Below are positions 10,942-30,153 of a DNA stretch of 64,000 nucleotides, in pieces (within the stretch, counting starts at the first letter, position 1; every line of letters begins with the position of its first letter). The notes under the pieces were generated by a model. It did not search any database. It worked only from the letters and a program-made list of their open reading frames with translations, and had not been told where the DNA came from. The DNA comes from Desulfovibrio aminophilus DSM 12254 (GTDB lineage Bacteria; Desulfobacterota; Desulfovibrionia; Desulfovibrionales; Desulfovibrionaceae): contig NZ_AUMA01000003.1 of assembly GCF_000422565.1 (NCBI RefSeq), forward strand, positions 248,001 through 312,000, given 5' to 3'. The translations under genes were made by a program, and so were the position numbers.

Positions 10942-10995
10942 GGGAAAATTGGCGCGCCCGGGAGGACTCGAACCCCCGACCAAGAGCTTAGAAGG
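10942..10995. repeat. Left attachment site (displaced tRNA-Arg 3' end)
   Basis: 54 bp matching 30100-30153 with a single difference (A at 10979 against G at 30137). It covers the anticodon-arm side, variable loop, T arm, acceptor 3' strand and CCA of the tRNA, plus 8 bp beyond. It is not a functional tRNA: the 5' half is replaced by element sequence after 10995. Confidence 0.92.
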
Positions 10996-11075: not shown

Positions 11076-11096
11076 GTGCAATCAAGGGGAGGGGGC

Positions 11097-12074
11097 ATGG
11101 CTTCCATCTCAAGGCAGACTTCTGGCAGGTGGCAGGCGAAGGTCAGAAAAGTCGGCTTTCCATTGCGCTCCAAAACCTTTGCGACCAAAGCGGATGCCGA
11201 AGCCTGGGCCAGGGCCCAGGAGCGGGAGATGGATCGCGGGGCCTTCCTGCCCACGGACGCGGCCGAACGCACAAGCGTCGCCGCGATTCTGGATCGCTAC
11301 ATCCTTGAGGTGTTCCCGAGACTGGCCGGGGAGGGGAAGAACTTTCACGCGAACATGGCCCGGATGAAGGCCGAAATCGGCGGAATCTCCCTGTCCGCGC
11401 TCGATCCCTCACACATCTCCGCGTATCGGGACAAGGCTCTGACCCTGGTGAGCGCGCAGACCGTGCGGCATGACCTCGGCTTGCTCAGCCGGGCCTTGAA
11501 GATGGCCGTCATCGACTGGGGCATCGCGCTTCCGCGTGGGCTGCCCACCGCCCTGGTAAGGCTCCCGAAAGTTCCCCGGTCCCGAGACAGGCGTCTGAAG
11601 TCCGGCGAGGAGGCGAAGCTTCTCAGGGCGGCGGAGGCCTACGGTGGGGAGATAGGGGATGTTATCTCCTTTGCGCTGGAGACGGCCGCCAGGCGCACGG
11701 AGATCGCTTCCATGCGCTGGGAGCATGTAGATCTGAAAAGTCGAGTAGTGACCTTCCCAGAGACGAAAAACGGGGAGATCCGTCGGGCTCCGCTTTCCCC
11801 TCGGGCCCTGGAAATTCTCAAGGCCAGAAAACGGGATCTGGGACCGGTCTGGAGGATGCGGCCGGACTCCATCTCGCAAGCCTTTGAGCGGGTCTGCGCG
11901 AAGGCCGAGTTGGAGGATTTGCGGTTTCATGATCTCCGGCACGAAGCCGTTTCCAGGCTTTTCGAGAAGGGGCTGAACACGATGGAGGTCGCGGCGATCT
12001 CTGGACACAAAACGCTGGCGATGCTGAAGAAGTATACGCATTTGCGGGCGGAGGATTTGGCGGCGAAGCTGTAG
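11097..12074 (+). CDS. int: Tyrosine recombinase/integrase
   Basis: 325 residues from ATG 11097, which follows a purine-rich GGGGAGGGGG; an upstream GTG at 11076 lacks such a site. The N-terminus (ASISRQTSGRWQAKVRKVG) resembles the AP2-like arm-binding domain, the middle (about 60-160) is a SAM-like core-binding domain, and the C-terminal catalytic domain shows AARRTEIASMRWEHV (catalytic Arg near 198), HDLRHEAVSRLF (H-x-x-R near 277-280), ISGHKTL (His near 303) and KKYTH (nucleophile Tyr near 312). It lies 100 bp inside the left attachment site and should catalyse integration into the tRNA-Arg 3' end and, with an excisionase, excision. Confidence 0.95.
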   Translation: MASISRQTSGRWQAKVRKVGFPLRSKTFATKADAEAWARAQEREMDRGAFLPTDAAERTSVAAILDRYILEVFPRLAGEGKNFHANMARMKAEIGGISLSALDPSHISAYRDKALTLVSAQTVRHDLGLLSRALKMAVIDWGIALPRGLPTALVRLPKVPRSRDRRLKSGEEAKLLRAAEAYGGEIGDVISFALETAARRTEIASMRWEHVDLKSRVVTFPETKNGEIRRAPLSPRALEILKARKRDLGPVWRMRPDSISQAFERVCAKAELEDLRFHDLRHEAVSRLFEKGLNTMEVAAISGHKTLAMLKKYTHLRAEDLAAKL

Positions 12075-12720: not shown

Positions 12721-12765
12721 CAATACAGCCTGGCCCGAAGCCGGGCCGGGCCGAAAACATCACCT

Positions 12766-13206: not shown

Positions 13207-13489
13207 AAATCTTGTGGCCTTTGGGTCGGCCACCGCCAAACTGCTTGTTGAGGTAGTAGTCCAGGGTCGCTTCGGCGGCTATGACGTATGTCTTTCCGAC
13301 CCGATCAGCGCGAAGCTTCCCTTTTTTGAGATCCCGCTGCACCACGAGGAGATTGAGTCCCAGCTCTTTGGCTACTTCCGCCGATGCGAGGAGTTTCCGG
13401 CCCGGGCCCTCGCGCAGCAAAAGCCTCGCGTTCTCGCGCGAGATATTCCCGGCTTTGGCCTTCATCACAATCTCAGCCCACAGACTCAT
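13190..13489 (-). CDS. Small putative DNA-binding protein
   Basis: 99 residues. The centre (RKLLASAEVAKELGLNLLVVQRDLKKGKLRADRVGKTYVI, about 30-70) resembles the winged-helix/MerR-like fold of excisionases and plasmid regulators, with a positively charged tail (GGGRPKGHKISKKQG). The ATG overlaps the stop of the preceding gene by 4 bp (ATGA), so the two are co-translated. It belongs to the two-gene cassette between the direct repeats. No family is recognised with confidence, so a regulatory role is only suggested by the fold pattern. Confidence 0.6.
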   Translation of the reverse strand: MSLWAEIVMKAKAGNISRENARLLLREGPGRKLLASAEVAKELGLNLLVVQRDLKKGKLRADRVGKTYVIAAEATLDYYLNKQFGGGRPKGHKISKKQG

Positions 13490-14436
13490 CGCTCTTCCCG
13501 CCCTACCACCTGGAGGATGCTGCTCTTTTTCTTGATAATTTCTTCCCCGTCTTCGAAGACGACATAGACGCGTTCGCCTGAAAAATATAGGTCCACGCCC
13601 TCAGCCTCGTATTCCTCGGCCACGAACTTTCCACCCCGCCTGCTCCATTCATTCCAGACGATGGTCACGTTTTCCCTGCACTCCATCCCCGCCCTGCGCT
13701 TCTCCTTCCTCTTTTGCAGCCGGGCGGCTTCCTTCTTGGCCTCTTCGTCCCGGTGCTCTTGCTCCAGGCGGGCTTCCTCGGCCTGGCGTTCGGCCTTCTT
13801 CTTGGACTCGTTCCTCTGGCGCTCATTCTCCTGGGCCAGCCTGGCGACCTCTTCCTCGGTGGGGAGCTGGATCAGGTGGGCCTCAATCCAGGCCTCCTTG
13901 AGGCCGCGAGGCCAGACCTGGGACGGGACGGGGAGGCGCCGCGCCCCGAATCTCCTGTTGCTCCTCTCGCTCGTTCTCTCCAGACCCTTTTTCACGAGCC
14001 AGCCCGGGCAGTAGTGCTCGCGGCCCTCCTGGTGCAGTTGGGACTTGGGCGCCCAAAAGGTGCAGTTGTGCTCCTGGCGCTCCACGTCATGTTCCTTTCG
14101 CCTCTCCTCCTCATTCTCAAGCAGACAAGGGATCGAGCACTGCACGCTTTTGCCCCCTGTGCTCTCTTTTTTGCCGACCTTCACCAGGAGCCAGCCACCT
14201 TTTTTTTCACACATGTCTTTTTCAATCTCGTCGGCCCGCTGGACGATGTTTTCCTTCAGGGCCGCCAGGGCCTCGAGTGTGGGGGAGTGGAGGTCGAGGC
14301 TGGAAAAGTCGAATAGGTCCCTCCCGGCCCAGCCCTTCCCGCGAACATCAACAAAATCCGAGGCCGTCTGAGGGAGAACGTCTTCCAATGCAAACACACC
14401 AAAAACTATTGTCTTTCTCGCGATCAGCTTGGCCAT
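13486..14436 (-). CDS. Hypothetical protein with charged coiled coil
   Basis: 316 residues from the ATG at 14436, preceded by GAGGAGG; upstream in-frame ATGs lack a ribosome site. Residues about 1-60 (MAKLIARKTIVFGVFALEDVLPQTASDFVDV) are globular. Cysteines occur in VQCSIPCLL and EHNCTFWAP...HYCPGW and might bind metal. Residues about 205-260 form a strongly charged Glu/Lys/Arg coiled coil (ENERQRNESKKKAERQAEEA). The C-terminal 55 residues look beta-rich (VDLYFSGERVYVVFEDGEE). No known family is recognised. It is the first gene of the cassette flanked by the direct repeats, so it may be exchangeable cargo. Confidence 0.65.
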   Translation of the reverse strand: MAKLIARKTIVFGVFALEDVLPQTASDFVDVRGKGWAGRDLFDFSSLDLHSPTLEALAALKENIVQRADEIEKDMCEKKGGWLLVKVGKKESTGGKSVQCSIPCLLENEEERRKEHDVERQEHNCTFWAPKSQLHQEGREHYCPGWLVKKGLERTSERSNRRFGARRLPVPSQVWPRGLKEAWIEAHLIQLPTEEEVARLAQENERQRNESKKKAERQAEEARLEQEHRDEEAKKEAARLQKRKEKRRAGMECRENVTIVWNEWSRRGGKFVAEEYEAEGVDLYFSGERVYVVFEDGEEIIKKKSSILQVVGREER

Positions 14437-14507
14437 GTTTTTCCTCCTCTTGTTAGAGATAATAGTATGCCGTCGCATATATTTTGTCAAGTCGGCCTAA
14501 TCCTTCC

Positions 14508-14939
14508 TTGAGAGGGCGCGGTCCGGGGCTGGTGGTCGATCCTCCGGCCCCTTTCGCGTTTGCGGCCGCTGGCGGCCCGTCTGCCGGCTCCAAGCGCCCG
14601 GGGCGCTCCGCACGTCCCGGCCTCGCCTCCGGCTCGTCCTGGACCCCCGGGCGGGGAAGGAAGGTGGGATTCATTTGGGATCCCTGCTCTGCGGGCTGGT
14701 ATCCATCTTGGCCCTGAAGTGCTCAAAGGCGATGCCGATCTTGGACTGGAGCGTTTCACGCCTGGCGGCCGCCCCGCGCTCAGACTCCTTGAGGACTTCG
14801 GCCGAGAGCTCCTCAATGAATGTCATGGCCTGGTCTTCGGTGAGATAGCGGCCGCCGATTGGGCCAGCTTCGAATTTTGCGTGAGACTTTAGCACAATGT
14901 TTTCAATCGGTTGGCCTAGTTTTTCGCTCGACAGACCTT
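14508..14939. repeat. 0.43-kb direct repeat, copy B
   Basis: The partner of copy A at 12766-13198. This copy contains the complete 3' part of the leftward gene at 14671-15060 and appears to be the source, because the open frame continues upstream of the repeat boundary, whereas in copy A it is cut. Confidence 0.9.
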
Positions 14940-15060
14940 GTTTTGAAACAAGGTCGGCCGTCCGGTCTTTGGGAAAGCCCAGAAGCGCATCCATGCCTGC
15001 GGCCCGGAGCACCGGCCCCTCGCCCTGCTTGATGTCCATGTGCCGCAGCAGGTCGAGCAC
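14671..15060 (-). CDS. Hypothetical protein, half-length paralogue of the upstream gene
   Basis: 129 residues from a GTG start; the frame is open back to about 15160 without a better start. Segments DLLRHMDIKQGEGPVLRAAGMDALLG and FEHFRAKMDT parallel NLLRHMVVDADRGVLLRDRGLADLLG and FEHFETRVDT of the protein encoded just upstream (15113-15853), so the two are tandem relatives. In the upstream extension, QHIEKIVQVKRAKF repeats QPIENIVLKSHAKF of the same protein, showing that the module has recombined internally. Function unknown; no membrane segment or catalytic motif. Confidence 0.55.
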   Translation of the reverse strand: MLDLLRHMDIKQGEGPVLRAAGMDALLGFPKDRTADLVSKQGLSSEKLGQPIENIVLKSHAKFEAGPIGGRYLTEDQAMTFIEELSAEVLKESERGAAARRETLQSKIGIAFEHFRAKMDTSPQSRDPK

Positions 15061-15112
15061 CTGTCCGCCGGGACTTCTGACGAATTTTGCGCGTTTTACT
15101 TGGACAATTTTT

Positions 15113-15853
15113 TCAATGTGTTGAGGTGAAAACGCGATACGGTCCAGGCCAGCTCGTCAGCAGCCGGGCCCCCTCGGCCTTGGCCTGGTTCGCGGCCTGG
15201 GCCTTGCCCAGCCGGCGGGCGCGCTGGCGGAAGGGATTGGTGTCGACCCGGGTCTCGAAATGCTCGAAAGCGGCGGCCACAGCCGCCTTCAGCTCCTCGC
15301 GAGGGGCGGGGAGGTAGGGCTGCGGATCGTCCGGCCCGGCGCTTTTTTCCAAGAAAGCTCCCACCTGATCGGAAGCGTAAAACCTATTACTTGGCCCTCC
15401 CCCCTGGGGACGGGTTGATGATGCGCTTGAACCATGGTCCAGAGTAATTTCAATAGGTTGATTTAGTTCCGCGTGGTCAACTTTCTTCTCCTCCGCATCG
15501 CGGTTCACATGCTTCGCCTGCTTCCCCAACAGGTCCGCAAGGCCCCGGTCCCGCAAAAGCACGCCCCTGTCCGCGTCCACGACCATGTGGCGCAGGAGAT
15601 TGTCCACCCTGGGGTTGCCCGTGGCGACCGCCCGGGGGATCCCCGGCAAGCCGGACTCGCCGGCCACGAGCTGCACCACGTTCATGGCGCCGCCCAGCTC
15701 GCCCAGGCGTTCGTCCAGCCCTTTCCGGGAGGAGATCAGGTCCTGGCCGCGTTCGACCATAGGGCCCATGGCCACCAGGGCGTCCCTCCGGCGGGCCAGA
15801 TCCCGGGCCTGCCGCTCTCCCTCGATCTGGGCCCGGACCGGGCTCGTGTCCAT
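15113..15853 (-). CDS. Hypothetical helical protein, paralogue of the downstream gene
   Basis: 246 residues from ATG 15853; no clear ribosome site precedes it, and an in-frame TAG lies about 40 bp upstream. The N-terminal half is helical and charged (GERQARDLARRRDALVAMGP), the middle has NLLRHMVVDADRGVLLRDRGLADLLGKQ, and the C-terminal half has FEHFETRVDTNPFRQRARR. The opening residues MDTSP recall the MDTSP near the end of the downstream paralogue, as if a junction between module copies had been moved. The last 15 residues (SWPGPYRVFTSTH) lie in a different frame from the homologous continuation seen in the next gene. It is possibly a decaying family; function unknown. Confidence 0.55.
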   Translation of the reverse strand: MDTSPVRAQIEGERQARDLARRRDALVAMGPMVERGQDLISSRKGLDERLGELGGAMNVVQLVAGESGLPGIPRAVATGNPRVDNLLRHMVVDADRGVLLRDRGLADLLGKQAKHVNRDAEEKKVDHAELNQPIEITLDHGSSASSTRPQGGGPSNRFYASDQVGAFLEKSAGPDDPQPYLPAPREELKAAVAAAFEHFETRVDTNPFRQRARRLGKAQAANQAKAEGARLLTSWPGPYRVFTSTH

Positions 15854-15893
15854 GCGCGGGTCGCGGCGGCCGCATTCTGGGAGCTATTGAGCG

Positions 15894-16490
15894 CTAACGT
15901 ATGGCCAGGCGGCCGGACCCCCTTCGGGGGAGGGAGCGGCCTCCAAATTTGCCCCGCGTTGCGTCGAGGTCTGGACTTTTGCTTTAGCATGCCCTATCTC
16001 GCATCTACGATCCTCGGGCCATTTCCGGGCCTTCCAGGGGGTCATTTTCAAGCAGCCTCCACTGCAGACCTCGCAAGAATCTCGCAAGAATCACGCAATG
16101 TATCATTTCTGCACCACAACTGTAATTTTAGTGCAGTATGCTGCACATGCGCGATTCTGCGCGATTCATCAATCTACCTGTGAAGAGTCGGGACAAAGTC
16201 TAGATAATGCACTGTGAGCTGTGTTGCATGGGTCAAAATGTGTCCCCGTCGTCCATATGGTCCTGTGTCAGCCGCAAGCGGCCCTGTACTGCATCGCTCG
16301 TGTCGTGCATAGTCGGCATGCTGCATCCGTCTTGAATGCTTTCCGCGCGGCTCTTCCGCGCCGAAGGCGCGTGCGGGAGCGGAGCGCGGCTCTTCACCCG
16401 TTCTTGGCGGTCTTCAGGCCCGGCCCTGCGCCGGGCTCTTTCCAGGCACCGGGCTCCTCAAAGCGGTCCTTAGGAGCCCGCATAAGGCGC
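15894..16490. other. Repeat-rich non-coding region
   Basis: About 600 bp between the leftward cassette genes and the terminator of the transfer operon. No convincing gene is seen. It holds tandem repeats (annotated separately), an inverted CTGCAC/GTGCAG pair around 16121-16147 and a CGCGCC-GAA-GGCGCG hairpin near 16359-16373. It should contain the promoter for the genes at 15853 and leftward. Confidence 0.5.
16071..16168. repeat. Tandem and inverted GAATC-CGC repeats
   Basis: TCGCAAGAATC occurs twice in tandem (16071-16081 and 16082-16092) followed by a partial ACGCAA. The unit GCGCGATTC occurs twice in the opposite sense (16149-16157 and 16159-16167). The 10-11 bp periods and the inverted arrangement suggest a binding site for a dimeric or multimeric protein, such as an operator or accessory replication/partition site. 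Confidence 0.5.
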
Positions 16491-16495
16491 AAAAA

Positions 16496-16519
16496 AAGCC
16501 CCCCGAAGGGGGCTCTGGA
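16496..16519 (-). terminator. Rho-independent terminator of the transfer operon
   Basis: Read leftward, AGCCCCC-TTCG-GGGGGCT forms a strong hairpin followed directly by seven T. It stands just after the last small open frame of the leftward transfer operon (stop at 16534). Confidence 0.88.
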
Positions 16520-16533
16520 GGGGGGCGGGATGG

Positions 16534-16812
16534 CTATTCCTCCCGGTCGTGCCAGGCCTGCACGGCTTCCCGCTGCGAGTCGTTCAAGCGGAAGCTCCAG
16601 GCCTTCCAGGGGGCGTTCCGCCAACCCTCGGGAGCCTCGTCCTAGCGATCCAAGGCCATGGCGCACATGATGAGCTCCGAGGTACTGCCTTCCATCTGCT
16701 CCCTGTCCGCATGTCTTTCAGGGAGTGGCCGCTTTCGTCCGCCCACAAACCCGCCAACGGCTCGGAGACGAGTTCCCTCTCTGCGCGAAGCCTTCCCTTC
16801 AGCGTTCTTCAC
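16534..16812 (-). pseudogene. Small ORF at end of transfer operon, interrupted by an in-frame TAG
   Basis: From a GTG at 16812, 8 bp after GGGGAG, the frame reads 56 residues (ending ELIMCAMALDR), meets TAG at 16642-16644, then continues open for 35 more codons (DEAPEGWRNAPWKAWSFRLN...QAWHDREE) to a TAG at 16534, 15 bp before the operon terminator. The second half looks like genuine protein (Trp-rich, balanced charge) but lacks its own start. Either the gene is broken, the product is 56 residues, or the amber codon is read through. No homologue is recognised. Confidence 0.5.
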
Positions 16813-16831
16813 GATTTCATCTCCCCTTTTT

Positions 16832-17923
16832 TTAATGGGAAACCCTTTGCGCTTCGGCGCGGTCCCTCCAGTCCACGATGTTCCTGTTCATCTCTTCATG
16901 GGCCCGCGCGGACTGGTCCTGCGCCATCATGTAGGCGACCTGCTGCTGCAGCACCAACTGCCGCTTCGAAACCTCGAGCAATGTCCCCATTATCATGGCG
17001 AGTTCCTGCAAAAGGGCGCGTTCTTCTTTCTGCACGAGTCCCGTGTACCAGTTCACGTTGGCGAACCGGGTGTCGGTCAATAGATTGATGAGCGACATCG
17101 CCGACAGGCCATCGGAATTGATATAGGGGCAGGCGCCTTCACGCCCCATGGCCTGCCACTCCTCCTGCGCCCAAGTCTTCAGGGTCGTGTAGGCCGGTGC
17201 ATTGGCCGCCAGGATGTCGGCCTGAACCTTCTGGGGGACGGCGAGCCGGGCCTCCTTGACCCTGAGCAGCCGTTCATAGGCCCTGCCCTCATCCGAATTT
17301 TTCGCCGTCCCGGACAGCTGCCTGTCCGGGAACGGATTGCTGACCAGATTGCTCAAGATGAAGCCCTGGCCAAGCTGCTCGCTCGTGAGAACGCCGTTCT
17401 CCGGAAACACCACCGATCCGTTGAGGGACTCGGGGGGCAGCTCATCCATTTCATCCAGTCGCTGTTTCTGGTCCTGCCAGGAGGCGGCCCGGTTTCTGCC
17501 GGCGGATCGGCTCGCCAATTCCTTGGCCACGCCGGCCTCGGTCTCCTTGCCTAGGGTGACTCCGGCCCCGAGGGTCGGGGAACCGCAGGCGGAATCGGGC
17601 CGGCTGCGCAACGCGCTGCCGAATTTCGCGTAGTTCTGGTTCAGCTGCCTCTCCGCGGCCTGCGCCTTGAACAGTTCGATGAGCAGCGTGTTCTGACTTT
17701 GGAACTCCTGGTGGGTGACCTCGGTGTTCCGCTTGACCTCCTGTTCCAACACCCGGCCGACCTCTCTGATGGCCTCGATGATGGAGGAGCCCATCCAGTT
17801 GAGTTCCGAAGTTGTGGCGATCTCGCCGCTGCCGCAATCGCCCGTCACATACGTTCCACCGAACGCCTGTCCGGTGGAGATCACCATGGACAGGACCACG
17901 ATGCACGCCTTTCTCCAGCTCAT
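16832..17923 (-). CDS. Exported protein of transfer operon, VirB5/TrbJ-like coiled-coil protein
   Basis: 363 residues from ATG 17923, preceded by GGGAGGGG; the ATG at 17944 overlaps the previous stop but lacks such a site. A signal peptide (MSWRKACIVVLSMVISTGQAFG) is followed by a small Cys pair region (TGDCGSGE), a long helical segment (about 35-100), a central region with two more cysteines (SACGSP, GACPYIN) and a C-terminal coiled coil (ALLQELAMIMGTLLEVSKRQLVLQQQVAYMMAQ). Exported, coiled-coil proteins of this size next to conjugation genes often have VirB5/TrbJ-like or TraW-like roles at the outer face of the channel. The specific assignment is tentative. Confidence 0.6.
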   Translation of the reverse strand: MSWRKACIVVLSMVISTGQAFGGTYVTGDCGSGEIATTSELNWMGSSIIEAIREVGRVLEQEVKRNTEVTHQEFQSQNTLLIELFKAQAAERQLNQNYAKFGSALRSRPDSACGSPTLGAGVTLGKETEAGVAKELASRSAGRNRAASWQDQKQRLDEMDELPPESLNGSVVFPENGVLTSEQLGQGFILSNLVSNPFPDRQLSGTAKNSDEGRAYERLLRVKEARLAVPQKVQADILAANAPAYTTLKTWAQEEWQAMGREGACPYINSDGLSAMSLINLLTDTRFANVNWYTGLVQKEERALLQELAMIMGTLLEVSKRQLVLQQQVAYMMAQDQSARAHEEMNRNIVDWRDRAEAQRVSH

Positions 17924-17940
17924 TTTTCCCCTCCCTTGGG

Positions 17941-18474
17941 TCATGCCTTTTCTTCCTTGTCGATGCGCGGTCGGGCGGGCCGCAACTCGCGGCTGCGCCG
18001 TCGCCAGAGCCAGACCAACGCAGCCATGCCCGCGCCGCTGAACAAGGCCCCGCTCAGGCCCAGGGGCCAGGAGTATTCCTGAGGGCCGCGCTCTTTCTGC
18101 ATCGCGATTTCAGGCAAGCCCATGGCCTTCAGCTGGGCCCGCTCATCCTCGGGCAGGCCCGAACTCAGGCCCAGGAGCATGGCCGCCAGAACCAGGAGCG
18201 CGGCCAGGCCCATTCCCTTCTTCTTCCTCGGCTTCGCCTCGGCGGCCCGGGATGTCTGCCTCTTATCCCAAAGCTCCGCAGCCAGGGTCGCCAGGCTGAA
18301 GAACAGAGTCAGAATGGCCAGGGGCCTTTTGGAGGCGGGCTCCAAACCGACAGTGGCCATGTCCCAGGCCCAAAGCGCGATGCCGACCAGGACGGCCATG
18401 CCGAAAAGCCAAACCACGATGCGCTTCACTCTCAACATACCGCCCCCGGTTTGACGTGCCGCAACGTCTTTCAT
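17941..18474 (-). CDS. Multi-pass membrane protein of transfer operon
   Basis: 177 residues from ATG 18474 behind GGAGG. Four hydrophobic helices can be read: IVVWLFGMAVLVGIALWAW, LAILTLFFSLATLAAEL, GLAALLVLAAMLLGLS and GLSGALFSGAGMAALVWLW. They are separated by a basic loop (RQTSRAAEAKPRKKK), and the tail is Arg/Lys-rich. The gene starts 10 bp after the preceding stop and ends with an ATGA overlap. No family is recognised; its place between the DotA-like gene and the exported protein suggests an inner-membrane part of the transfer apparatus. Confidence 0.65.
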   Translation of the reverse strand: MKDVAARQTGGGMLRVKRIVVWLFGMAVLVGIALWAWDMATVGLEPASKRPLAILTLFFSLATLAAELWDKRQTSRAAEAKPRKKKGMGLAALLVLAAMLLGLSSGLPEDERAQLKAMGLPEIAMQKERGPQEYSWPLGLSGALFSGAGMAALVWLWRRRSRELRPARPRIDKEEKA

Positions 18475-18484
18475 CTCAGTCCTC

Positions 18485-18721
18485 CTATGTCCGGTAGAGG
18501 TGTTCATCGGCCCGGGCCTGCCAGTAACCCACCCAAAACCCGAATTCCGGGCTCCGGCGGGCCTCGGCGTCGGCCATGGCCAGGATCCGGCCCGATGCTT
18601 CCAGGTCCGGCTCCAGGGTGGCCAGGCCGGCCATGTCCAGCCGGTCCTCCAATTCCTCGGCATTCAGCTGCCCGCTCCCGGCGGGCCTGGGCAGCAAGTT
18701 TTCAAACCACATCTCACTCAT
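18485..18721 (-). CDS. Small acidic hypothetical protein of transfer operon
   Basis: 78 residues. The start at 18721 is 7 bp after GGAGGAG; the ATG two codons upstream is too close to that site. Sequence MSEMWFENLLPRPAG then a helical acidic body (ELEDRLDMAGLATLEPDLE, ILAMADAEARRSPEFGFWVGYWQARADEHLYRT). No membrane segment or known domain. It is tightly packed between the DotA-like gene and a membrane protein gene, so probably co-transcribed with them. Confidence 0.65.
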   Translation of the reverse strand: MSEMWFENLLPRPAGSGQLNAEELEDRLDMAGLATLEPDLEASGRILAMADAEARRSPEFGFWVGYWQARADEHLYRT

Positions 18722-18757
18722 ATGCATTCTCCTCCAATGTTGTGGTTGGCGTTGTGG

Positions 18758-20896
18758 TCACGTTGTGGAATCGTTGTTCTTGCGTTGTGGACTTGCGGGA
18801 ACGTCCACTGAAGTCATGGCAAGGTCGTCATCACTGACCTTGACGCCGCTCTGGCCGTTATCGCGCGAGGGCGCCTGCCCCGCCCCAACGCCTGCCCGGC
18901 CGCCCACGCCCGCGGCGTGCTCGGACTTCGCGATCACGCCCGCAAACGTGTGTGAGGTACGCGCCTCATCCGAGGCCTCACCCAGGTCGTGACGCTGCTG
19001 GCCGATCCAGCAGATGACGCGTTCCGGCAGCCAGGTGATAAGCCCGAAGATCTTGTGGCTCAGGACCACGAAAAGGCCGCCCAGGATCACGGTCAGGGCC
19101 ACGGTGGAGATGAGGCCGCGGGGATCCTCGACACTGAGCCCGGCCGCGAAGGTCGAGAATCCGGCGCCAACGAACGCGCCCACGGTCTTGATGAGCGCCA
19201 GGGCTGCCACCAGTCCCGCCACCATGAGCATGGGACGGATCAGGATGCCCAAGTAAAGCATGTAGCCCTGCCGAGCCCGCTCGCCGGCCAAACCCTCGCC
19301 CTCTGGCAGGGCATGGGCGGCCACCCAAAGAGGCGCGGCCACCAGGGATTCCACGACCACGACGAGCCAGCTGACCACGGCGCAGATCCAAAGGATATAA
19401 GGGATTGAAGGCAGGTAGTAGGCCAGGAAGAACCCCAGACCCATGAGGCTGATGAGAGCTGCCCGGACGATCCCACCGATCTCCCGGATCACGGCGGCCG
19501 CGCCGCTGACGGCGGCGTTGGAGGCTCCAAAGCTGATCAGGCCTACGGCTTTGCCGGCCAGGCTGTCACTATGGCCCTTGGCCGCGCCGGCAAGCGCCAC
19601 CGCTCCCAGGTAGCCTGTGCCGGCCACCAAGCCGCCGTTGATGATGGTCCCACCAAGGTCGGCCAGGGTGATGACCGGATCTCCGGAACCCATCCGCCGG
19701 GCGACCGCATCCACCTGCCAGGTCACGGCGCGGCCAAAGAATTGATAGAGCCGATCGTTCCAGGCATCGCCGCCGCCAGTCTGTGCCGCCGCGATGCGTG
19801 CCGCCTGGATCATCTTCGCGTAGGAATCCGCGCGTACCAACGCCCCTGAAACAAGCTCCCCCGGAAGCCCAGGGAGAATCCCGGGGATGTTCGGTTCCTG
19901 CATGGTCGGGGTCGCGAGAACCACCCGGCGAGCCCGCTCGTGCAGGCGGGAAATCGTCCAGTAATAGCTCCCTGCTGAAGCCCAACCGTCAATCTTGGCC
20001 TGATTGGCGAACTGCCGCAGGTCCTGAACGAGTTGGGAGTTTTGGGCTTGCAGCCAGGCGCCCAGATGGGGGATCACGGCCGCATCGTGGGCCTCAACCG
20101 CCCTCAGAAAGTCACTCGCGGAAGGCACTTGCTGGTCAGGGTCCGCCAGCCGTGCGGCCAGGGAGTCCATTTCCTGGGCCAGGCGCGTCAGGGCCGTGAG
20201 CCGGGTCTGGCAAACCTCGTTTTTGCCGCCCGGGCAGGGCAGGTGGATCCGGCCGAACTCGCCCGAGTCGTAGCCTCCGGTGGGAAGGAACGTCAGAATG
20301 TAGGCCCCGCCTTCTCCCCCGGGGACAAACTCATAGGAAAGCAGCTCGCCGCGCTCCTCGTGCTGGTCAGAAAGCGCCTTGGCGCGTGCCCATGTGCGGG
20401 CCCGCAGAATTCCGCCGGCCACCTGCCGGGTGGATTCCTCCACGCTGGCCGGAGCCTCGGCCACGACCATGCCGCCCGAGTCCACGAGTTTGTCCAGCAC
20501 AAGGGCCCAGCCGGTGTTGGCCATGGCGATGGACTGCCCCAAAGTCCACAGCAGGGCCATTTGCATGAGGCTGATGCCACCCGGGCCGACAGGGGCAAGC
20601 AGGGATGTTGAAAAAGCAAGCCTGAGCGGTGTCCAGAAGGTGTGATAGGCTCGGCCCAGCGGGCGGCCATCGTGGGCCGTCCCGACGATTCCCCGAGTCA
20701 TTATCCAAAGCAACAAAATCGAGACGGCGGCCAGGGCGATCGCGTTGAAGTAGCCGAGCAGGTTGAACAGGATGTTGGTCGCCGCGGCCGCCCCATCCCC
20801 CGGCACCAGGGCCTCCCAACCGGCCCCGAAGAGAGTATCCAGAAGTCGAACTGACGCGTCGTCCGGGCGCGGCACCGTCACATCAGACAGGCTCAT
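18758..20896 (-). CDS. DotA/TraY-family integral membrane protein
   Basis: 712 residues. Start chosen at 20896, which has GGAGGT 8 bp upstream; longer frames begin inside the CRISPR-like repeat. An N-terminal helix (FNAIALAAVSILLLWIMTRGIVG) leads into AHDGRPLGRAYHTFWTPLRLAFSTSLLAPVGPGGISLMQMALLW, which matches the conserved DotA/TraY segment. Then comes a large soluble loop (about 130-420), followed by at least four C-terminal helices (e.g. VRAALISLMGLGFFLAYYL, WICAVVSWLVVVVESLVAAPLWVAAHALPEGEG). In Dot/Icm and IncI systems DotA/TraY is an inner-membrane channel-associated protein. Its presence without a VirB4-like ATPase suggests it works with, or modifies, a helper channel. Confidence 0.82.
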   Translation of the reverse strand: MSLSDVTVPRPDDASVRLLDTLFGAGWEALVPGDGAAAATNILFNLLGYFNAIALAAVSILLLWIMTRGIVGTAHDGRPLGRAYHTFWTPLRLAFSTSLLAPVGPGGISLMQMALLWTLGQSIAMANTGWALVLDKLVDSGGMVVAEAPASVEESTRQVAGGILRARTWARAKALSDQHEERGELLSYEFVPGGEGGAYILTFLPTGGYDSGEFGRIHLPCPGGKNEVCQTRLTALTRLAQEMDSLAARLADPDQQVPSASDFLRAVEAHDAAVIPHLGAWLQAQNSQLVQDLRQFANQAKIDGWASAGSYYWTISRLHERARRVVLATPTMQEPNIPGILPGLPGELVSGALVRADSYAKMIQAARIAAAQTGGGDAWNDRLYQFFGRAVTWQVDAVARRMGSGDPVITLADLGGTIINGGLVAGTGYLGAVALAGAAKGHSDSLAGKAVGLISFGASNAAVSGAAAVIREIGGIVRAALISLMGLGFFLAYYLPSIPYILWICAVVSWLVVVVESLVAAPLWVAAHALPEGEGLAGERARQGYMLYLGILIRPMLMVAGLVAALALIKTVGAFVGAGFSTFAAGLSVEDPRGLISTVALTVILGGLFVVLSHKIFGLITWLPERVICWIGQQRHDLGEASDEARTSHTFAGVIAKSEHAAGVGGRAGVGAGQAPSRDNGQSGVKVSDDDLAMTSVDVPASPQRKNNDSTT

Positions 20897-20916
20897 ATCC
20901 ACCACCTCCATTTCCT

Positions 20917-21177
20917 TTTTTGCCCCTGCGCGCAGGGGATTCACGAAGGAGTCCAGCGGCCCGCCCCGTTGGAACCTTTTCTACCCCTGCACGCAGGGGG
21001 TTCACGAAGGGAGCGGAGAGCCGGTCAAAATGGTGTATTTTCTACCCCTGCACGCAGGGGGTTCACGATGACGCGCGAAAGACAAAATTTCTACCCCTGC
21101 ACGCAGGGGGTTCACGTCGTCTCCTTGGCGCGCGGAAAAGCCTCCAACTTTCTACCCCCGCACGCAGGGAGCGCTCA
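20917..21177. CRISPR. Short CRISPR-like array, five repeats, no cas genes
   Basis: Five 29-bp units at 20917-20945, 20978-21006, 21039-21067, 21088-21116 and 21149-21177. The middle three are identical; the first has four differences and the last six, mostly at its end. Each has TTTCTA, the stem CCCCTGC-AC-GCAGGGG, then GTTCACG. The four spacers are 32, 32, 20 and 32 bp and unrelated to one another. Read on the minus strand the repeat starts GTGAAC and ends TAGAAA, recalling type I-F format; the 29+32 spacing also suits type I-E. The array sits between the relaxase and DotA-like genes, so the operon transcript would include it. The last unit overlaps the relaxase stop codon. Confidence 0.65.
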
Positions 21178-23829
21178 GGGCGTCATCTCCATCTCCTGGT
21201 CCATCCCCTGTTCGGGCCCCAGGACCGGGCGGCCGTCCGGCCGCTGTGGCGCGTCCAGAAGCGGACCGTATTTGTAAACTTGTGACTCTTGTACCATATA
21301 TTTTTGATCTGCACAATGTACTTTTTTATTTTTGTTTGGTGTTTGTTCTTTTATGCAATAATCCAAAGACGTGTCTTTCTGTCTAAGTGCGGACATTTGC
21401 TTGATAGTATCAAGAATATTTGAATGTAACGTTTTGTCCTTTCCAAGACACTGAATGACTTCTCTCTCGGCATCCTGCCGTTCAACATAGATTTGAGCCG
21501 TCTTGCGATGGCGGCTCATCTGCACGTAGGAAAGTTCGCGCGAGGCCATGCTTCCGCCCGCCAGGACGTGGGCGTGATCAACCGTCACGCCCTGGGCCTT
21601 GTGCGTGGTCACGGCGTAGCCGTGGGCCAGGGCCTGGTAGTCGGCCAACGGCACGCGGGTTTCCGCGCCCGAGTCCAGGCGCACCAGGAGGGAATGCGCG
21701 CCGGGCGCGCCGGTGATGGTCTTGATGGTCCCAAGGGTGCCGTTGGAGACCGCGAACTTGCGGTTGTTGCGGGTGAAAAGGATCCGCTCTCCCTCGGCCA
21801 GCCGGAGCCTGCCGCTGGTGGTCTCGGCCTCGATCTCAACCGCTCCAAGGCGGCCCTGCGCCTTCAGCTCCGCGCGGGCCGCCCGATTCAGGGCGGCCAC
21901 TTCGGCTCTGGTGCCGGCCAGCATGATGTGTTTTTCAAAGCCGTCCCGGGTCACGCCTTCGCAGTAAGCCCCGGCCATGGACTGGATCGCGGCCGTGCGG
22001 TTCTCCTCGATGTGCAGCAAGCCCCGCTCGGCGTAGGCGGCCAATCCCTCGGCCGCGCGGCCGTCGGCAAAGTCCCGCACGGCCTGGACGGCCCAGCCTT
22101 CGCGTTGCCGCCGGATTTCATCCATCTCCACCGCCCCCAGGCGCGCGGCGAGTGCGCGAAACGCGCCGCCCGCATCGATGGGCTGAAGCTGTCTCGCATC
22201 GCCCACCAGCACGACTTTCGCGCCTGTCTCCCGGGCGCGCTCCAGGAGCGTGGCCATCTGGCGCGAGCCGACCATGCCGGCCTCGTCCACCACGAGCACG
22301 GTCCGGGAGTCCAGGAGCGGTGCGGCCCCTGGGGAAGCCGGGGCCTCCAGGCCCTGGAGCAGGGAGTGGATGGTCTGGGACTTGATGCCGCTGCCTTCCT
22401 CGAGCCCGGCGGCGGCCTTGCCCGCCAGGGTCGCGCCACGGACGTGGTAGCCGCCCGCCTCCCAGGCCGCGCAGGCCGCGCCCAGCATGTAGGATTTGCC
22501 CGCGCCGGCCATGCCCTGCACGCAGGTCACGCCGTCGGGGCCCATGATGTGGGTGAGGGCCCGGTCCTGTTCCCGGGTCAGGGTCCGGGCGGCCCGGGCC
22601 GCGGCCATGGCGGCCGGGGTCACCTGGTGACGAGCTTCGCCGCGCCGGGCTTGGGCGTCTGCGGCCAGACCACGTTCCAGGTCCAACATTTCGCGGCTGG
22701 TGTAGCGGGTTTCCCCGTTGGCGGCCTGCAGGTGGATCAGGTCGGGATGTTGCAGAAATTCGTCCACGGCTTGCTGGATTCCGGCCGCGTCCAGAATGCC
22801 CTGGCCCTCCACGGCCAGGAGCCGGTAGACGTCCGCCGCGCGGACGGTCGAGGCCTGGGCCGTCAGGGCGGCCAGGAGTTCGGCCGCGGTGGGCATCTGG
22901 CGGGGCTCAGCCGTGGCCGCTTGGGCGGCCTCCAAGATTTCCGGCGTCCAGCCCAGATCCCGGGCCCGGGTCTGCCACTCCTCGAAGAGTTCCGCACGGG
23001 GCCGGGCCTCCTTGGCCCTGCGGGTATCCAGGGCCGCCACCTCGGCCGCGCGGGCGGAACCCAGACCTGCCTCCTCCAAGGCGTCTTCGATCTGCTCCCG
23101 GCGTTGGCTGAAGGCCGCGCAGATTTCGGCGGGCACGCCGGCCACGGCGAAAGAGTCCCCATCCCGTTCCACCTGGAAGCCCAGGGTCTGCACCTGGGTG
23201 GCAAGCTCGGCTCGGTAGATGGCGCCCGCCGCCATTTTGTGCCGGTACATCTCGCAGGGTTCCAGGCTGCCCCAGGATCCATCCTGACGAGGGGCCAGGT
23301 TGGCGATCAAGCAATGCGTGTGCAGCTGGGGATCTTGTTCCCTGCTGGTCCCGTGTTCGAACGTCGCCGCGATGATCCCCGCGGGCCGCTCCTGTTCCTG
23401 CCCGCCATGGCCTCGGCGAGAGAGGGCGGCGTTGCGTTCCAGGTGCTCCAGAGCTGATGCCACGGCCTTGGCCTGGGCCGCCTGCAGGGCCCGGCGCAGG
23501 TCTTCCGGGGCTTGGCTCCAGACCACGCTCACGGACTTGGGCGCGGAGAAGCAAAAATCCCAGCCCGGCCGATGGTCCGGGCCCGCGCCCTGGACCAGGG
23601 CCGACCGGCTGTCCGGGTCCAGCCCCTGAAGCACGGCCCGCAGATCCTCGGCCACGACCTGGCCGCCGGCCATGGTCAGGCCCAGGGCCTCCGCTCCTTG
23701 CCCGATCCAGCGGCCGGGGGGCTCGCCCCCCGCCAGGTAGTAGTCTTCCCGCGCCAGGTTGAGCCAGTAGCTTCCAGCATCGTAGCTTCCAGCGTCACCG
23801 TCAGAGGACATTTTGGCGATGGACAGCAT
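21175..23829 (-). CDS. traI: MobF-family conjugative relaxase/helicase (TraI/TrwC-like)
   Basis: 884 residues. The relaxase domain (1-300) has N-terminal tyrosines Y16, Y21, Y30 and Y31, and the HUH histidines H159, H170 and H172 in [16 protein letters not shown]. The RecD2-like helicase follows with Walker A GMAGAGKS (439-446), Walker B VVDEAGM (513-519) and the late motif [18 protein letters not shown]. It should nick one strand at oriT, stay covalently bound to the 5' end and unwind DNA for transfer. The start has GGAG 7 bp upstream and lies 3 bp after the previous gene. The C-terminal 85 residues (DNA about 21280-21470) are encoded by distinctly AT-rich sequence unlike the rest and look like a recent replacement. 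The stop lies in a CRISPR-like repeat. Confidence 0.93.
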
Positions 23830-23832
23830 GGC

Positions 23833-24339
23833 CTACTCCTTCTTCTGGTCCCAACGTCCGAGGATGAAATCTCTGAAAAACATGAAACGGCGGTTGGCCA
23901 GAACCACGTAACGGTAATAGGTGGTGACGATTCCCGTGACGCAAACCAGGGACAGGATCACCAGATACATTGCGCGCAGGGTTGGGCTGCTCGGGCCGCT
24001 CCAGACCATGAGCCCGAGGAAAACGGCCCAGACCGCCCACCAGGTCGCGAGGGTCCAGCGCATCTCGCGGAGCACACGGGGAAGCTGCTCCTCCGTCAGG
24101 CCCCAGTGTTCCAAGACCTGGCTGAAATCCTTCAGGTCCGGGGCTCCCGGGGCATGCGGGTCGCGGCCAGCGTGCAGCCTGCGCAGGTAGGCCCAGAGGC
24201 CGCGCGAGTCCCGGCCTACCTGTGTCCAAAGAGCCTTGTGCTGGTCGATGGCCAAGCCCTGTTTCAGGGCCGAAACCGGGGTCAGGCCCCGGGCGGCTGA
24301 ACGGCCAAGACGCTTGGTCAGGTCAAGAAGCTTACCCAT
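23833..24339 (-). CDS. Two-helix membrane protein of transfer operon (TraX-like candidate)
   Basis: 168 residues from ATG 24339, behind GAGGAGG and overlapping the coupling-protein stop by 8 bp. The first 100 residues are soluble and helical (KDFSQVLEHWGLTEEQLPRVLREMRWTL). Two membrane helices follow (WWAVWAVFLGLMVWSG and AMYLVILSLVCVTGIVTTYYRYVVL), then a cytoplasmic end RRFMFFRDFILGRWDQKKE. The size and topology recall TraX of IncI-type systems, which neighbours the DotA homologue TraY, but this is only an architectural resemblance. Position between coupling protein and relaxase implies a transfer role. Confidence 0.6.
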   Translation of the reverse strand: MGKLLDLTKRLGRSAARGLTPVSALKQGLAIDQHKALWTQVGRDSRGLWAYLRRLHAGRDPHAPGAPDLKDFSQVLEHWGLTEEQLPRVLREMRWTLATWWAVWAVFLGLMVWSGPSSPTLRAMYLVILSLVCVTGIVTTYYRYVVLANRRFMFFRDFILGRWDQKKE

Positions 24340-26410
24340 GGTGTTCCTCCTCTTCCTCCTCGGGTTCAATCTCCCGAGGGGCACGTGGTTGGCTGATCTG
24401 TTGAATGTGCTGACCGCCATGAGCCGGCGCGGCGAGTTCGGCCGCCTTGGCGGCCAAATCGAGAAGCTCAAGCCCCGCCCCCAGGCCGGGTACAGCGACA
24501 TCCAGGGCGTTTTGAGCCAGCTCTTGAATTATCTCCTCCCCGGCTTCCTCGGTCGGGCCCGGCTCCTTCTGGTCTTCAGGTCCATCCTCCTCAGGCGCCA
24601 GGAGTTCCGCCGCCGGGGCAAACTCGGCAGCCTGCATCGCTTCAGGCTGTCGGCTGCGTTCCTGGCGAGCCTGGACTGAAGGCGCCGCGGCCCGCAGATC
24701 CTCGAGATCAGGAGTCTCGGAAGCCGAATCGACCTCGGCCGCCTCCTGAACGGCCGCCTGGAGGGCGGCCTGGCTCGCGCCCGCAGCCAGGGCCGGATTC
24801 TCAATGAGCTGGGGGCGGAACTCTGACTTTGTGGGGTAGGGCCAGGTCAGGAGGTAGGCGAAGGGTCCACCCGGGAACCAGATGGCCTGGACGCCTTTCT
24901 TCACTGGGCCCAGGAGAGTGGTGATTTCGTCTGGGCGGACGACAGGCAGTTCCTCGGGCTGGTAGGCCGTGGTCCGGCCGCCGCCCTCGGACTGGGTGGC
25001 CGTCCAGCGCAGGACTCGGCGCGTGCCGATCAGCCTGGAAAGCCAGGTGGGGGTTTCCACGCCCTGGGTCCGGCAAACCACGAAACTGCCGACCATCGAG
25101 GACCAGGCATCCGCCGCATCCCGGCTGTACAGCTCGCGGATCTGGGCAACATCCTGGAAGCCCAAGACGCAGCGCAGGCCCTTCGATCTCCCGACCTCAA
25201 GGAATCCATCAAAATCATTGAGTTTTCCAAGCTGCTTGAACTCGTCCAAAAAGAGCCAGATACGTCTGGCCCGCGAATCCGGGCACCCCGGATCGCAGAT
25301 GATGCTGGCCAGAGTACTGACAACCGCCTGAATGTAGGCGCGGCGCAGGGGTTTGTAGCGGCCGGAGCCCTGCAGGACGAGAGTCTGAACTGGGTGACGG
25401 GCCTCAGGGCTCTTCTGGTCCAGGATCCAGCGGCGCAAGCTCCACTTCGGCCGTCCAGCCCAGGCGTCGGCCAAGTCGCAGATGTGGCTCAGCGAAGTGC
25501 TGATGTTGATCAGGAAGCTCTGGACCGTCTTGCCTTGATGCTCAACAGCCCGAAATCCTTCAGGATAATAGGTGAAAACGATCTTTTGCAGATCCTCGAA
25601 CGGCGCGCTCGCCGCGGTCAGGAGATCCTTGAAGTCCCAGTCCTGCCCCTGGGTCTGTTGAAGCATCACCAGCAGGGCCACCAGTATGGCCCTGGCGCCG
25701 TCAGCCCAAATCGGCTCCTTGGTGTCGGGAATCAGCTGCTCGGCCAAGCGCCGCGCGTCCGCGCGGTTCAGGCAATCGGCAGCCACATCCCAGGCGAGAC
25801 ACCTCCTGTCCCAAGGGGCAAACAGATGGCCTTCGATTGAGGAAGTGAAGTCGCCCTTATTGTCGTAAATCAGCAGCTTATCGCCACGTTCCTGGGCTTC
25901 CTGGATCAAGGGCAGCATGACGACTGTTTTGCCCCCGCCGGTCGATCCCAGGATCATCAGGTGGCGAGTCTCGCGATCCAGGGAGAGGGCGATTCGCGGA
26001 TGGATGAGCACTCCCTCTCCACTGACCTTGGCCTCCTCCAGGGCCTCCGCCTGCGCCTCACGCAGCGCCTCCTTGCCCGTGAGCAGTTCACGGCCTGCCT
26101 CATGGATTTCTTCGTCTACCGGGGCCGAGAGCCGCCAGCCAAAAAGCGCCCCGAGGCTGGCCAAAATCGCCGGCAGGATCCAAAAAAGCGGGCCCAGGGT
26201 GAGCATTTTGGGGGTCAGGGGCCCCCAATTCCGCAGGGGGTCGGTCCAGGCGGCCAAGGCCGCCTTGGCCCAGAGCTTCACGCCCCAAGGCCAAGCGCCG
26301 AAGGCCTGGGCCAGCACGTAACCCAAGCCGAGGCCGAGGAGCAGGCCCAGGGCAGCCAGCAGGCCCATGAGGGCCAGGGTCGAACCGGGATCACGGACGG
26401 GTCTAAGCAT
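24332..26410 (-). CDS. traD: VirD4/TraD-type type IV coupling protein
   Basis: 692 residues. Two N-terminal membrane helices (ALMGLLAALGLLLGLGLGYVLA near 13-35, and ILPAILASLGALFGW near 78-92) precede the ATPase: Walker A GSTGGGKT at 155-162 and Walker B IWLFLDEF at 384-391, with VLGFQDVAQIRELY and VVCRTQG further on as in TraD/TrwB/TraG. The last 160 residues are acidic and Ala/Glu/Pro-rich, ending EPEEEEEEHHG, like the acidic TraD tail that contacts the relaxosome. It should recruit the relaxase-DNA complex to a secretion channel. The ATG overlaps the RHH gene stop by 8 bp and the 3' end overlaps the next gene. Confidence 0.93.
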   Translation of the reverse strand: MLRPVRDPGSTLALMGLLAALGLLLGLGLGYVLAQAFGAWPWGVKLWAKAALAAWTDPLRNWGPLTPKMLTLGPLFWILPAILASLGALFGWRLSAPVDEEIHEAGRELLTGKEALREAQAEALEEAKVSGEGVLIHPRIALSLDRETRHLMILGSTGGGKTVVMLPLIQEAQERGDKLLIYDNKGDFTSSIEGHLFAPWDRRCLAWDVAADCLNRADARRLAEQLIPDTKEPIWADGARAILVALLVMLQQTQGQDWDFKDLLTAASAPFEDLQKIVFTYYPEGFRAVEHQGKTVQSFLINISTSLSHICDLADAWAGRPKWSLRRWILDQKSPEARHPVQTLVLQGSGRYKPLRRAYIQAVVSTLASIICDPGCPDSRARRIWLFLDEFKQLGKLNDFDGFLEVGRSKGLRCVLGFQDVAQIRELYSRDAADAWSSMVGSFVVCRTQGVETPTWLSRLIGTRRVLRWTATQSEGGGRTTAYQPEELPVVRPDEITTLLGPVKKGVQAIWFPGGPFAYLLTWPYPTKSEFRPQLIENPALAAGASQAALQAAVQEAAEVDSASETPDLEDLRAAAPSVQARQERSRQPEAMQAAEFAPAAELLAPEEDGPEDQKEPGPTEEAGEEIIQELAQNALDVAVPGLGAGLELLDLAAKAAELAAPAHGGQHIQQISQPRAPREIEPEEEEEEHHG

Positions 26411-26741
26411 GGCTTTGTCCCTGCCCTTGAATCGCCGCCTGCACCTGCTTCATGGCTTGGATGGTCGCGGCCTGGGCCGTACGACCAGCGACCTCGGCCA
26501 CCTGGTCCAATCGGGCGGTAAGCCGCTCCTCCAGGGCGGCCAGGGCCTGGCCCTGGGCCTGGAGAATGGGGGTCAGGTCCACCTGGGCGGCCTGGGCCCC
26601 GGCGACTTCGAGTCGCTGAGCGGCGGAGCGCAGGAGGCCGCTCACCGTGTCGCCGCGCTCCCCTGCCAGCCGCTGAAGGTTCTCCAGGTCCGCACGCGCC
26701 AGCCAAACAGTGATGCATCTCCCACCTTTTTCCTTTTCCAT
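26403..26741 (-). CDS. Small relaxosome accessory protein, ribbon-helix-helix type
   Basis: 112 residues from ATG 26741, 7 bp after GGAGGT. GRCITVWLARADLENLQRLAGERGDTVSGLLRSAAQRLE (about 7-45) fits a ribbon-helix-helix DNA-binding domain: a beta strand then two helices. Residues 50-110 form a Gln/Ala/Glu coiled coil for oligomerisation. Such proteins (TrwA, TraJ, NikA) bind near oriT and repress their own operon. As first gene of the leftward transfer operon, next to repeat-rich DNA, it probably binds the 10-bp repeats upstream. Confidence 0.72.
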   Translation of the reverse strand: MEKEKGGRCITVWLARADLENLQRLAGERGDTVSGLLRSAAQRLEVAGAQAAQVDLTPILQAQGQALAALEERLTARLDQVAEVAGRTAQAATIQAMKQVQAAIQGQGQSHA

Positions 26742-27212
26742 TTTTTTACCTCCGACAGACTTTGATGTTGCCTGATAGCTTGAGATAGTTGTAACCCTGA
26801 TAAAATTTGAGGCGCGACGACAGAATATGATATTCAACGATAGTTGCAATATCTCGTTATATTTCTTTTTATCACTATAATTACTTTATTTTTGAAAATT
26901 TTTCGGGGCACAAAGGAAGATAGTATAGGACATGCTGCGATAGTCTTTGGCGTGTTGAGCGCAATATGCCCTGGTGGTCTACGGTAGTATGTGAAACAAG
27001 AATCCAGGCCGCCCGGAGCGATAGGCTGCGATAGGCTGCGATGCTTTCCATCCCCACCAAGGGTGCGTCGGGTGTGAGGGAAACCCTCTGCCTTTGGACC
27101 TTTGGAGGGGGGCGAAGGGGGGCGAAGGGGAGGAAGGCTGGGGAGTTTCGTGCGTCCATGCCTCAGTAACATTTCTGTTGCTTTTTTGTGGACAACACTT
27201 ATGTTGTGTTCA
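26742..27212. other. AT-rich promoter region of transfer operon and repeat-rich segment
   Basis: About 470 bp without a convincing gene. The part next to the RHH gene (26760-26930) is strongly AT-rich and should hold the operon promoter. The part from about 26934 to 27130 is repeat-rich and contains the candidate oriT, annotated separately. A perfect palindrome GTTCATGAAC lies at 27208-27217 at the broken hicA junction. Confidence 0.6.
27018..27126 (-). promoter_or_regulatory. oriT: Candidate origin of transfer (oriT)
   Basis: GCGATAGGCT is repeated in tandem at 27018-27027 and 27028-27037, with a partial GCGATGCT after it and an outlying GCGATAGTCT at 26937-26946. GCGTCGGGTGTG at 27065-27076 (plus strand) differs by one base from the F-plasmid nic core GCGTGGGGTGTG recognised by MobF relaxases. 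A GAGGG-AAA-CCCTC hairpin follows at once, then two 10-bp units GGGGGGCGAA (27107-27126). The arrangement of nic-like core, hairpin and repeats, upstream of RHH, coupling protein and relaxase genes, is typical for an oriT. Strand polarity is not certain. Confidence 0.5.
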
Positions 27213-27326
27213 TGAACGCACGTGACGCTCAACGGGAAAAAGACTCAGTTGCCGATGCACGGCGCGGCCAAGGAGCTTGGAACCGGGCTGGTGGAAAAGA
27301 TATTGAAAGACCTTGGGCTCAAGTAG
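27213..27326 (+). pseudogene. hicA: hicA toxin gene, 5'-truncated
   Basis: Just upstream of hicB, a frame opening after TGA at 27213-27215 encodes THVTLNGKKTQLPMHGAAKE then LGTGLVEKILKDLGLK and stops at 27324-27326. The TQLPMHG...KELGTGLVEKILKDLGL pattern is the C-terminal part of HicA mRNA interferases. The N-terminal part with the catalytic GSHH segment is missing; upstream sequence is unrelated. A GTG at 27222 could at most give about 34 residues. The toxin is therefore dead. Confidence 0.75.
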
Positions 27327-27338
27327 CCCGGAGGGACT

Positions 27339-27755
27339 ATGTTTGCATACCCCATCGAACTGATCGCCGACGATAACGGCACGTTCCTTGTCACATGTCC
27401 GGATCTGCCGGAAGTGACCACCTTTGGTGAGGATGAGGTGGACGCGGCTTTGCGGGCGCTGGACGCCATAGAAGAGGCCGTAGCAGCACGGATCGCCGGC
27501 CGTGAGGATATTCCGCTGCCCAGCGAAGCGAAGGGACGCACTACGGTCGCCCTCCCCATTCAGGCCGGCCTCAAAATCATGCTCCACCGGGAAATGCTCG
27601 CGGAGGGTCTCCGCAAGGCGGATTTGGCGCGCAGGCTCGACGCGCACGCCCCGCAGGTGGACCGCTTGCTTGACCTTCGCCACGCCTCTCGCCTGGATCA
27701 GATGGAAAAGGCGTTCAAGGCTGTGGGCAAGCGCCTGGAGTTCCGCCTGGCGTGA
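27339..27755 (+). CDS. hicB: HicB-family antitoxin
   Basis: 138 residues, 12 bp after the hicA remnant with GGAGGG as ribosome site. The N-terminal half (MFAYPIELIADDNGTFLVTCPDLPEVTTFGEDEVDAALRA) is the HicB partial-RNase-H-like fold, with the usual CPDLPE turn. The C-terminal half holds a helix-turn-helix (LRKADLARRLDAHAPQVDRLLDL, about 90-112) for operator binding. It is full length although its toxin is broken, so it may act as an orphan antitoxin or simply persist. Its 3' end faces the leftward gene 10 bp away. Confidence 0.88.
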   Translation: MFAYPIELIADDNGTFLVTCPDLPEVTTFGEDEVDAALRALDAIEEAVAARIAGREDIPLPSEAKGRTTVALPIQAGLKIMLHREMLAEGLRKADLARRLDAHAPQVDRLLDLRHASRLDQMEKAFKAVGKRLEFRLA

Positions 27756-27764
27756 CCCATCGGG

Positions 27765-28673: not shown

Positions 28674-28676
28674 GGT

Positions 28677-30099: not shown

Positions 30100-30153
30100 G
30101 GGAAAATTGGCGCGCCCGGGAGGACTCGAACCCCCGGCCAAGAGCTTAGAAGG
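30100..30153. repeat. Right attachment site within tRNA-Arg
   Basis: 54 bp matching 10942-10995 with one mismatch. It overlaps the 3' two-thirds of the intact tRNA gene, so integration left the tRNA functional. Confidence 0.92.

Follow-up and report, generated by a model that had tools for sequence, protein, structure and literature searches.

CRISPR arrays can travel on mobile DNA without cas genes: 207 orphan arrays were counted among 651 plasmid CRISPR/cas loci, about a third (PMC9071438), and viruses carry mini-arrays whose repeats are identical to the host CRISPR (PMC11656645). Mobile DNA also bears mimics of type I-F repeats, termed Racrs, which shield a targeted plasmid while it is being conjugated; candidates have been found on viruses and plasmids (PMC10651486). 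A locus with partial likeness to these systems was found in Desulfovibrio aminophilus DSM 12254, in a window (the whole stretch of DNA analysed, 64,000 nt, to which positions refer unless another locus is named) that includes an integrated element with conjugation genes. We tentatively read it, with slightly less than even confidence, as a CRISPR mini-array of I-F-like kind, orphaned and leaderless, which an integrative mobilizable element carries as cargo between traI and dotA.

Read along the minus strand from 21176 to 20917, the locus consists of five 28-nt repeat units and four spacers. Units 2 (21088..21115), 3 (21039..21066) and 4 (20978..21005) are identical and give the consensus GTGAACCCCCTGCGTGCAGGGGTAGAAA, from which units 1 to 5 differ at 5, 0, 0, 0 and 4 positions, respectively. 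Unit 1 (21149..21176; GAGCGCTCCCTGCGTGCGGGGGTAGAAA), the first to be transcribed, is degenerate in its 5' half and shares bases with the stop codon of the relaxase gene; unit 5 (20917..20944; GTGAATCCCCTGCGCGCAGGGGCAAAAA), the last, is also degenerate and is followed immediately by the ribosome-binding site and ATG of dotA. Spacers 1 (21116..21148), 2 (21067..21087), 3 (21006..21038) and 4 (20945..20977), all on the minus strand like the units, measure 33, 21, 33 and 33 nt, so that the period is 61 nt, and 49 nt once, where one spacer of the four is 12 nt short. Since every spacer ends in an invariant C, a description as 29-nt repeats with spacers of 32, 20, 32 and 32 nt is equally valid, and in that form the five repeats, three of them identical, and the spacer lengths are as the first-pass annotation had given them. 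Its bounds of 20917-21177 need a small correction, the far end of the array being at 21176, within the stop codon at 21175-21177.

The spacers are mutually unrelated (best pair p=0.07, i.e. equalled by 7% of shuffles), and a CRISPR array is generally recognized by repeats that are nearly identical and spacers that are unrelated and constant in length, as is the case here apart from one short spacer. The locus agrees with that general definition in all but a leader and proof of the origin of its spacers. No leader was found upstream of the first repeat, and because unit 1 abuts and overlaps the relaxase stop codon we describe the array as leaderless. In the 3'-terminal part of the relaxase gene, some 100 bp upstream of the array, lies an AT-rich patch (21270-21480; 26-48% GC in a region of roughly 64% GC), which may be a join left by recombination or a former leader-like sequence.

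The array fills the gap between the stop codon of a MobF relaxase and the start of a DotA/TraY gene, and all three are on the minus strand, which agrees with the earlier placement of the array in a transfer operon and in its direction of transcription. The relaxase/helicase of MobF (TrwC) type, TraI (21175..23829; 884 aa; Pfam TrwC 8e-86 and a MobF NCBIfam match), has a C-terminal tail that includes a part without counterpart in aligned relatives. The DotA/TraY family protein (18758..20896; 712 aa; TIGR04346, 5e-104) follows the array, and upstream of traI are genes for a small membrane-type protein (23833-24501) and a TrwB/TraD-type coupling protein (24332..26410; PF10412, 1.8e-69), again on the minus strand. 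Perfect 37-bp att direct repeats bound the 19.2-kb element (10942-30136), which is integrated at a tRNA-Arg gene: one copy lies at the 3' end of that gene (30100..30136, plus strand), and the identical distal copy (10942..10978, plus strand) adjoins the tyrosine integrase of the element (11076..12074, plus strand; PF00589, 1.2e-24). Two similar GC-rich stretches within it (12416-13018 and 14487-14816), whose minus-strand frame peptides are alike (RSSPRSAS...SGPRWIPAR.AGIPNESHLPSPPGGPGRA), indicate an apparently duplicated segment.

Among the element proteins scanned there was no Pfam or NCBIfam match to a T4SS ATPase or other mating-pair protein, so the element appears mobilizable rather than self-transmissible. 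SGI1 reportedly swaps in its own TraG, and by analogy the present element may ride on the MPF-I system of a helper, substituting its own TraY/DotA. As had been noted at first, no cas genes were found on the element, either with Pfam and NCBIfam or with PADLOC.

Three identical, regularly spaced 28-mers are not a product of chance, because a search of the host's own 3.42-Mb genome with the 22-nt core, allowing up to 3 mismatches (<=3), matched only the array units; the reversed-pattern control gave zero matches in that genome. The consensus 28-mer had no copy outside the host in 288 family genomes, and the repeat was found nowhere else in the genome collection or in IMG/VR. A dispersed repeat of the REP/ERIC kind was rejected, there being no other copy in the host genome or in the 288 family genomes.

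Each unit is predicted to fold as a hairpin of 6 bp or similar, and the minus strand of the array region folds better than 200 of 200 shuffles (z=-4.6); the plus strand, being its complement, also scores z -3.8. Units 1 and 5 both retain six of six stem pairs, unit 1 by means of two G-U wobbles that pair in minus-strand RNA and would break the stem in plus-strand RNA, and when as many changes are placed at random, both stems survive in 2-3% of simulations. This is modest evidence that the minus-strand, coding-direction RNA of the array has mattered. Intrinsic terminators were considered and rejected: a single terminator-like site was found, which lies on the other strand, and shuffled sequences have as many. 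Rfam gave no family for the region, only miRNA, sRNA and lncRNA noise.

So strong a fold, in repeats that exactly fill an operon gap, precede the ribosome-binding site of dotA and have no known Cas partner, would also suit mRNA hairpins or protein-binding repeats that are not CRISPR at all and that set the ratio of traI to dotA expression, mRNA stability or transfer control. We consider this unlikely, as it leaves the unrelated, equal-length spacers and the 28-nt unit with I-F-like ends unexplained, and such repeats are missing from the corresponding places of traI and dotA relatives. The minus strand, moreover, has no terminator-like site, and the region has no Rfam family.

The repeats of relatives offered a closer comparison. 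The nearest, GTGAACCGCCGCATAGGCGGCTTAGAAA, stands beside Csy4 genes in two genomes of the same order (G001 and G020) and is identical to GTGAACCCCCTGCGTGCAGGGGTAGAAA at 18 of 28 ungapped positions, including the first seven and the last six bases. None of 2000 shuffles scored as well (0/2000), but the typing used eight repeats and the shuffles do not preserve palindromes, so we place weight on the identical ends and equal length instead. The predicted stem of the array repeat (positions 7-12 paired with 17-22; 6 bp, 4-nt loop) leaves a 3' tail of 6 nt, as against the 8-nt handle of I-F repeats, and the array period of 61 nt compares with 60 nt (28 + 32) in the I-F array of G001. The predicted fold also lacks the C6-G20 pair, a requirement of Cas6f (PMC10651486). 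Because the stem is shifted, the tail is 6 nt, the period is 61 nt and C6-G20 is unformed, a known Cas6f might not cut this repeat. Of the I-F features tested, a 28-nt repeat with I-F ends is present, the stem and handle and the 60-nt period are not, and a cognate Cas6f/Cas7f was not found in the genome; as three of these four fail, we call the array I-F-like and do not file it as I-F. The resemblance to the I-F format that had been noted earlier is supported.

The array repeat fits none of the I-F, I-E or I-C repeats of the relatives compared. Type I-E was rejected, as the I-E repeat of a congener (G082) differs and the search of the host for Cas6e was negative; type I-C, to which the host's own cas locus appears to belong, was rejected because the I-C repeats of relatives are unlike the array repeat; and type IV was rejected with no Csf2 found and no PADLOC cas match on the element. 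Both the I-C and the I-E arrays of G082 have repeats other than GTGAACCCCCTGCGTGCAGGGGTAGAAA. A scan of 395 phylum genomes for the I-F flanks (GTGAACC-N15-TAGAAA) gave only chance singletons outside the host, and a two-unit version found none in IMG/VR viral contigs. As no other genome has the array repeat, no Cas partner is known for it.

The host genome is 99.98% complete, and its Cas proteins were sought by family searches. Only one Cas1 was found, within an I-C-like locus with Cas3-, Cas8c-, Cas7- and Cas4-sized frames, the type being inferred from frame sizes and order. This locus reaches the end of contig C4 (G000, L045) just after cas1; because it runs into the contig end, the host's own array is not assembled beside it. 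Neither Cas6f nor Cas7f (PF09618, PF09615), the cognate proteins of a type I-F array, was found in the host, and both were found in an E. coli control. Cas6e was not found in the host with a search that was positive in relatives or controls, and Csf2 was not found there with a search whose controls were positive only below the curated cut-off.

Mini-arrays that borrow Cas proteins share their repeat with the host CRISPR, and in this genome the repeat occurs at the array locus only. The first-pass annotation had proposed that the array borrows Cas proteins from its host; with Cas6f, Cas6e, Cas7f and Csf2 not found and a host locus that is I-C-like, this gained no support, nor did a search of the host genome turn up the type I system with the same repeat that it had called for.

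It had also supposed that rival elements are attacked; no spacer target was found in plasmids, phages, IMG/VR, the host or its relatives. Only chance-level matches were returned by exact scans of the four spacers against IMG/VR with every sixth base free, by blastn searches of plasmids and phages with the complete array and, singly, with the 33-nt spacers 1, 3 and 4, and by comparison of the spacers with the host's own genome and 58 relatives. Most true CRISPR spacers are likewise without a database match. One candidate protospacer, in the prfC gene of two congeners, was dismissed: the boundary of spacer 4 and repeat 5 matches the reverse strand over 27 bp in L069 (1500-1527) and 25 bp in L070 (1500-1525), runs 10 nt into the repeat and falls in a conserved coding motif, and we judged the matches in both congeners to be a coding coincidence. 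With neither a matching Cas in the element or host nor a target found, the array is probably an orphan, working only in other hosts if at all, and we expect it to be inert in the present one.

The element has no close relatives by DotA in the named genome collection or by relaxase in IMG/VR. Within the order, the best DotA relative has 36% identity and the best relaxase relative 46%, and no repeat array was found upstream of dotA in the DotA relatives of the order or in the relaxase relatives. In two relaxase relatives a patatin-like gene directly follows traI, and in the dotA-bearing elements compared the neighbour of dotA is a small membrane protein gene or others, not traI; two plasmids with a related DotA have ordinary transfer genes around dotA. 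Because relatives are arranged otherwise and are without the array, the traI-dotA junction with its array is peculiar to the present element among those seen. Past the traI relative, L119 (below 9466, minus strand) and L120 (after 10900) carry a patatin-like phospholipase gene (FQILALDGGGIKGLFSAAILAQLE), and the patatin-like phospholipase after the closest relaxase relatives is of the kind used as a CBASS effector, suggesting that defence genes may be carried as cargo at the downstream junction of traI. In another DotA element, L121 (below 10699, minus strand), short imperfect GTTTTGACATTGAATGTC-like repeats follow traI; they are unlike the array.

Several lines of evidence speak for an orphan array: the regular units, three of them identical, the unrelated, equal-length spacers and the restriction of the repeat to a single locus; the I-F-like ends, the strand-specific retention of the hairpins and the shared direction with the flanking genes; and the variability of the traI downstream junction among relatives. 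Against it stand the failure to find Cas6f, Cas6e, Cas7f or Csf2 in the host, cas genes on the element, a protospacer or a leader, together with the shifted stem, 6-nt tail, unformed C6-G20 pair, period of 61 and one spacer 12 nt short. Some of these same features, namely the shortened spacer, the missing leader and Cas and the degeneracy of both end units (5 and 4 changes), could instead mark a decayed remnant, in which a fragment of an earlier I-F-like CRISPR locus was caught in the element as functionless filler between traI and dotA. A degenerate end repeat is usual in working CRISPR arrays too, however, and here units 2 to 4 are identical and even the degenerate units keep the stem, so decay seems unlikely to us.

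Read-through from traI across the array into dotA, when the transfer genes are on, would yield a pre-crRNA, for whose processing the present host has no known enzyme. Where a recipient has an I-F-type system, each hairpin would be cleaved by an enzyme like Cas6f, giving crRNAs of about 61 nt and one of about 49 nt from the short spacer, and these would load into the recipient's own Cascade and direct it against competing mobile DNA. A more specific version is a transfer-coupled crRNA cassette, which makes guides only when the relaxase/DotA operon is on, has a variant repeat suited to an I-F-like Cas6/Cascade, as yet undescribed, in the recipients it usually enters, and delivers guides against competing elements to hosts that supply the Cas proteins; we regard this as very doubtful. 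Alternatively, should the imperfect repeat prevent assembly, the array could serve as a decoy like RNA anti-CRISPRs, the hairpin RNAs of the repeats, not the spacers, tying up Cas6f/Cas7f of a recipient with an I-F-type system and protecting the incoming element. I-F repeat mimics on mobile DNA do just this (PMC10651486), and an imperfect repeat and the absence of a host system would suit a travelling element, but known Racrs are solitary, five regular units with constant spacer length exceed what a decoy needs, and the C6-G20 pair required by Cas6f is not predicted here, which makes a decoy quite improbable. At the sequence level, targeting, decoy and decayed-remnant versions of the array would look alike.

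Compared with type I-F arrays (repeat of ~28 nt ending in AGAAA, 32-nt spacers, Cas6f/Csy4), the locus likewise has a 28-nt repeat with a central hairpin and spacers of ~32 nt, and its GTGAAC and TAGAAA ends are identical to those of an I-F repeat of the same order; it departs from type I-F in its shifted stem, 6-nt tail and 61-nt period, with no I-F cas found in the host. Integrative conjugative elements with type IV or other CRISPR systems likewise have a CRISPR component on an integrated element, in many cases aimed at other plasmids, whereas no Csf2 or other cas gene was found with the present array. Orphan arrays and viral mini-arrays (PMC9071438, PMC6858448, PMC11656645) are, like this one, short, cas-less and on a mobile element. 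The viral mini-arrays reviewed have host-identical repeats and a spacer or two, for the most part against related viruses, in contrast to the four spacers, lack of host match or known target, and transfer-cluster location seen here. Working guides from the array would mean that mobilizable elements, and not viruses alone, use borrowed CRISPR, and that guide production is tied to conjugation. RacrIF1 (PMC10651486) is likewise an I-F repeat mimic on mobile DNA, solitary where the present array has five units; as a decoy, the array would amount to an RNA anti-CRISPR in multiple copies, deployed during transfer.
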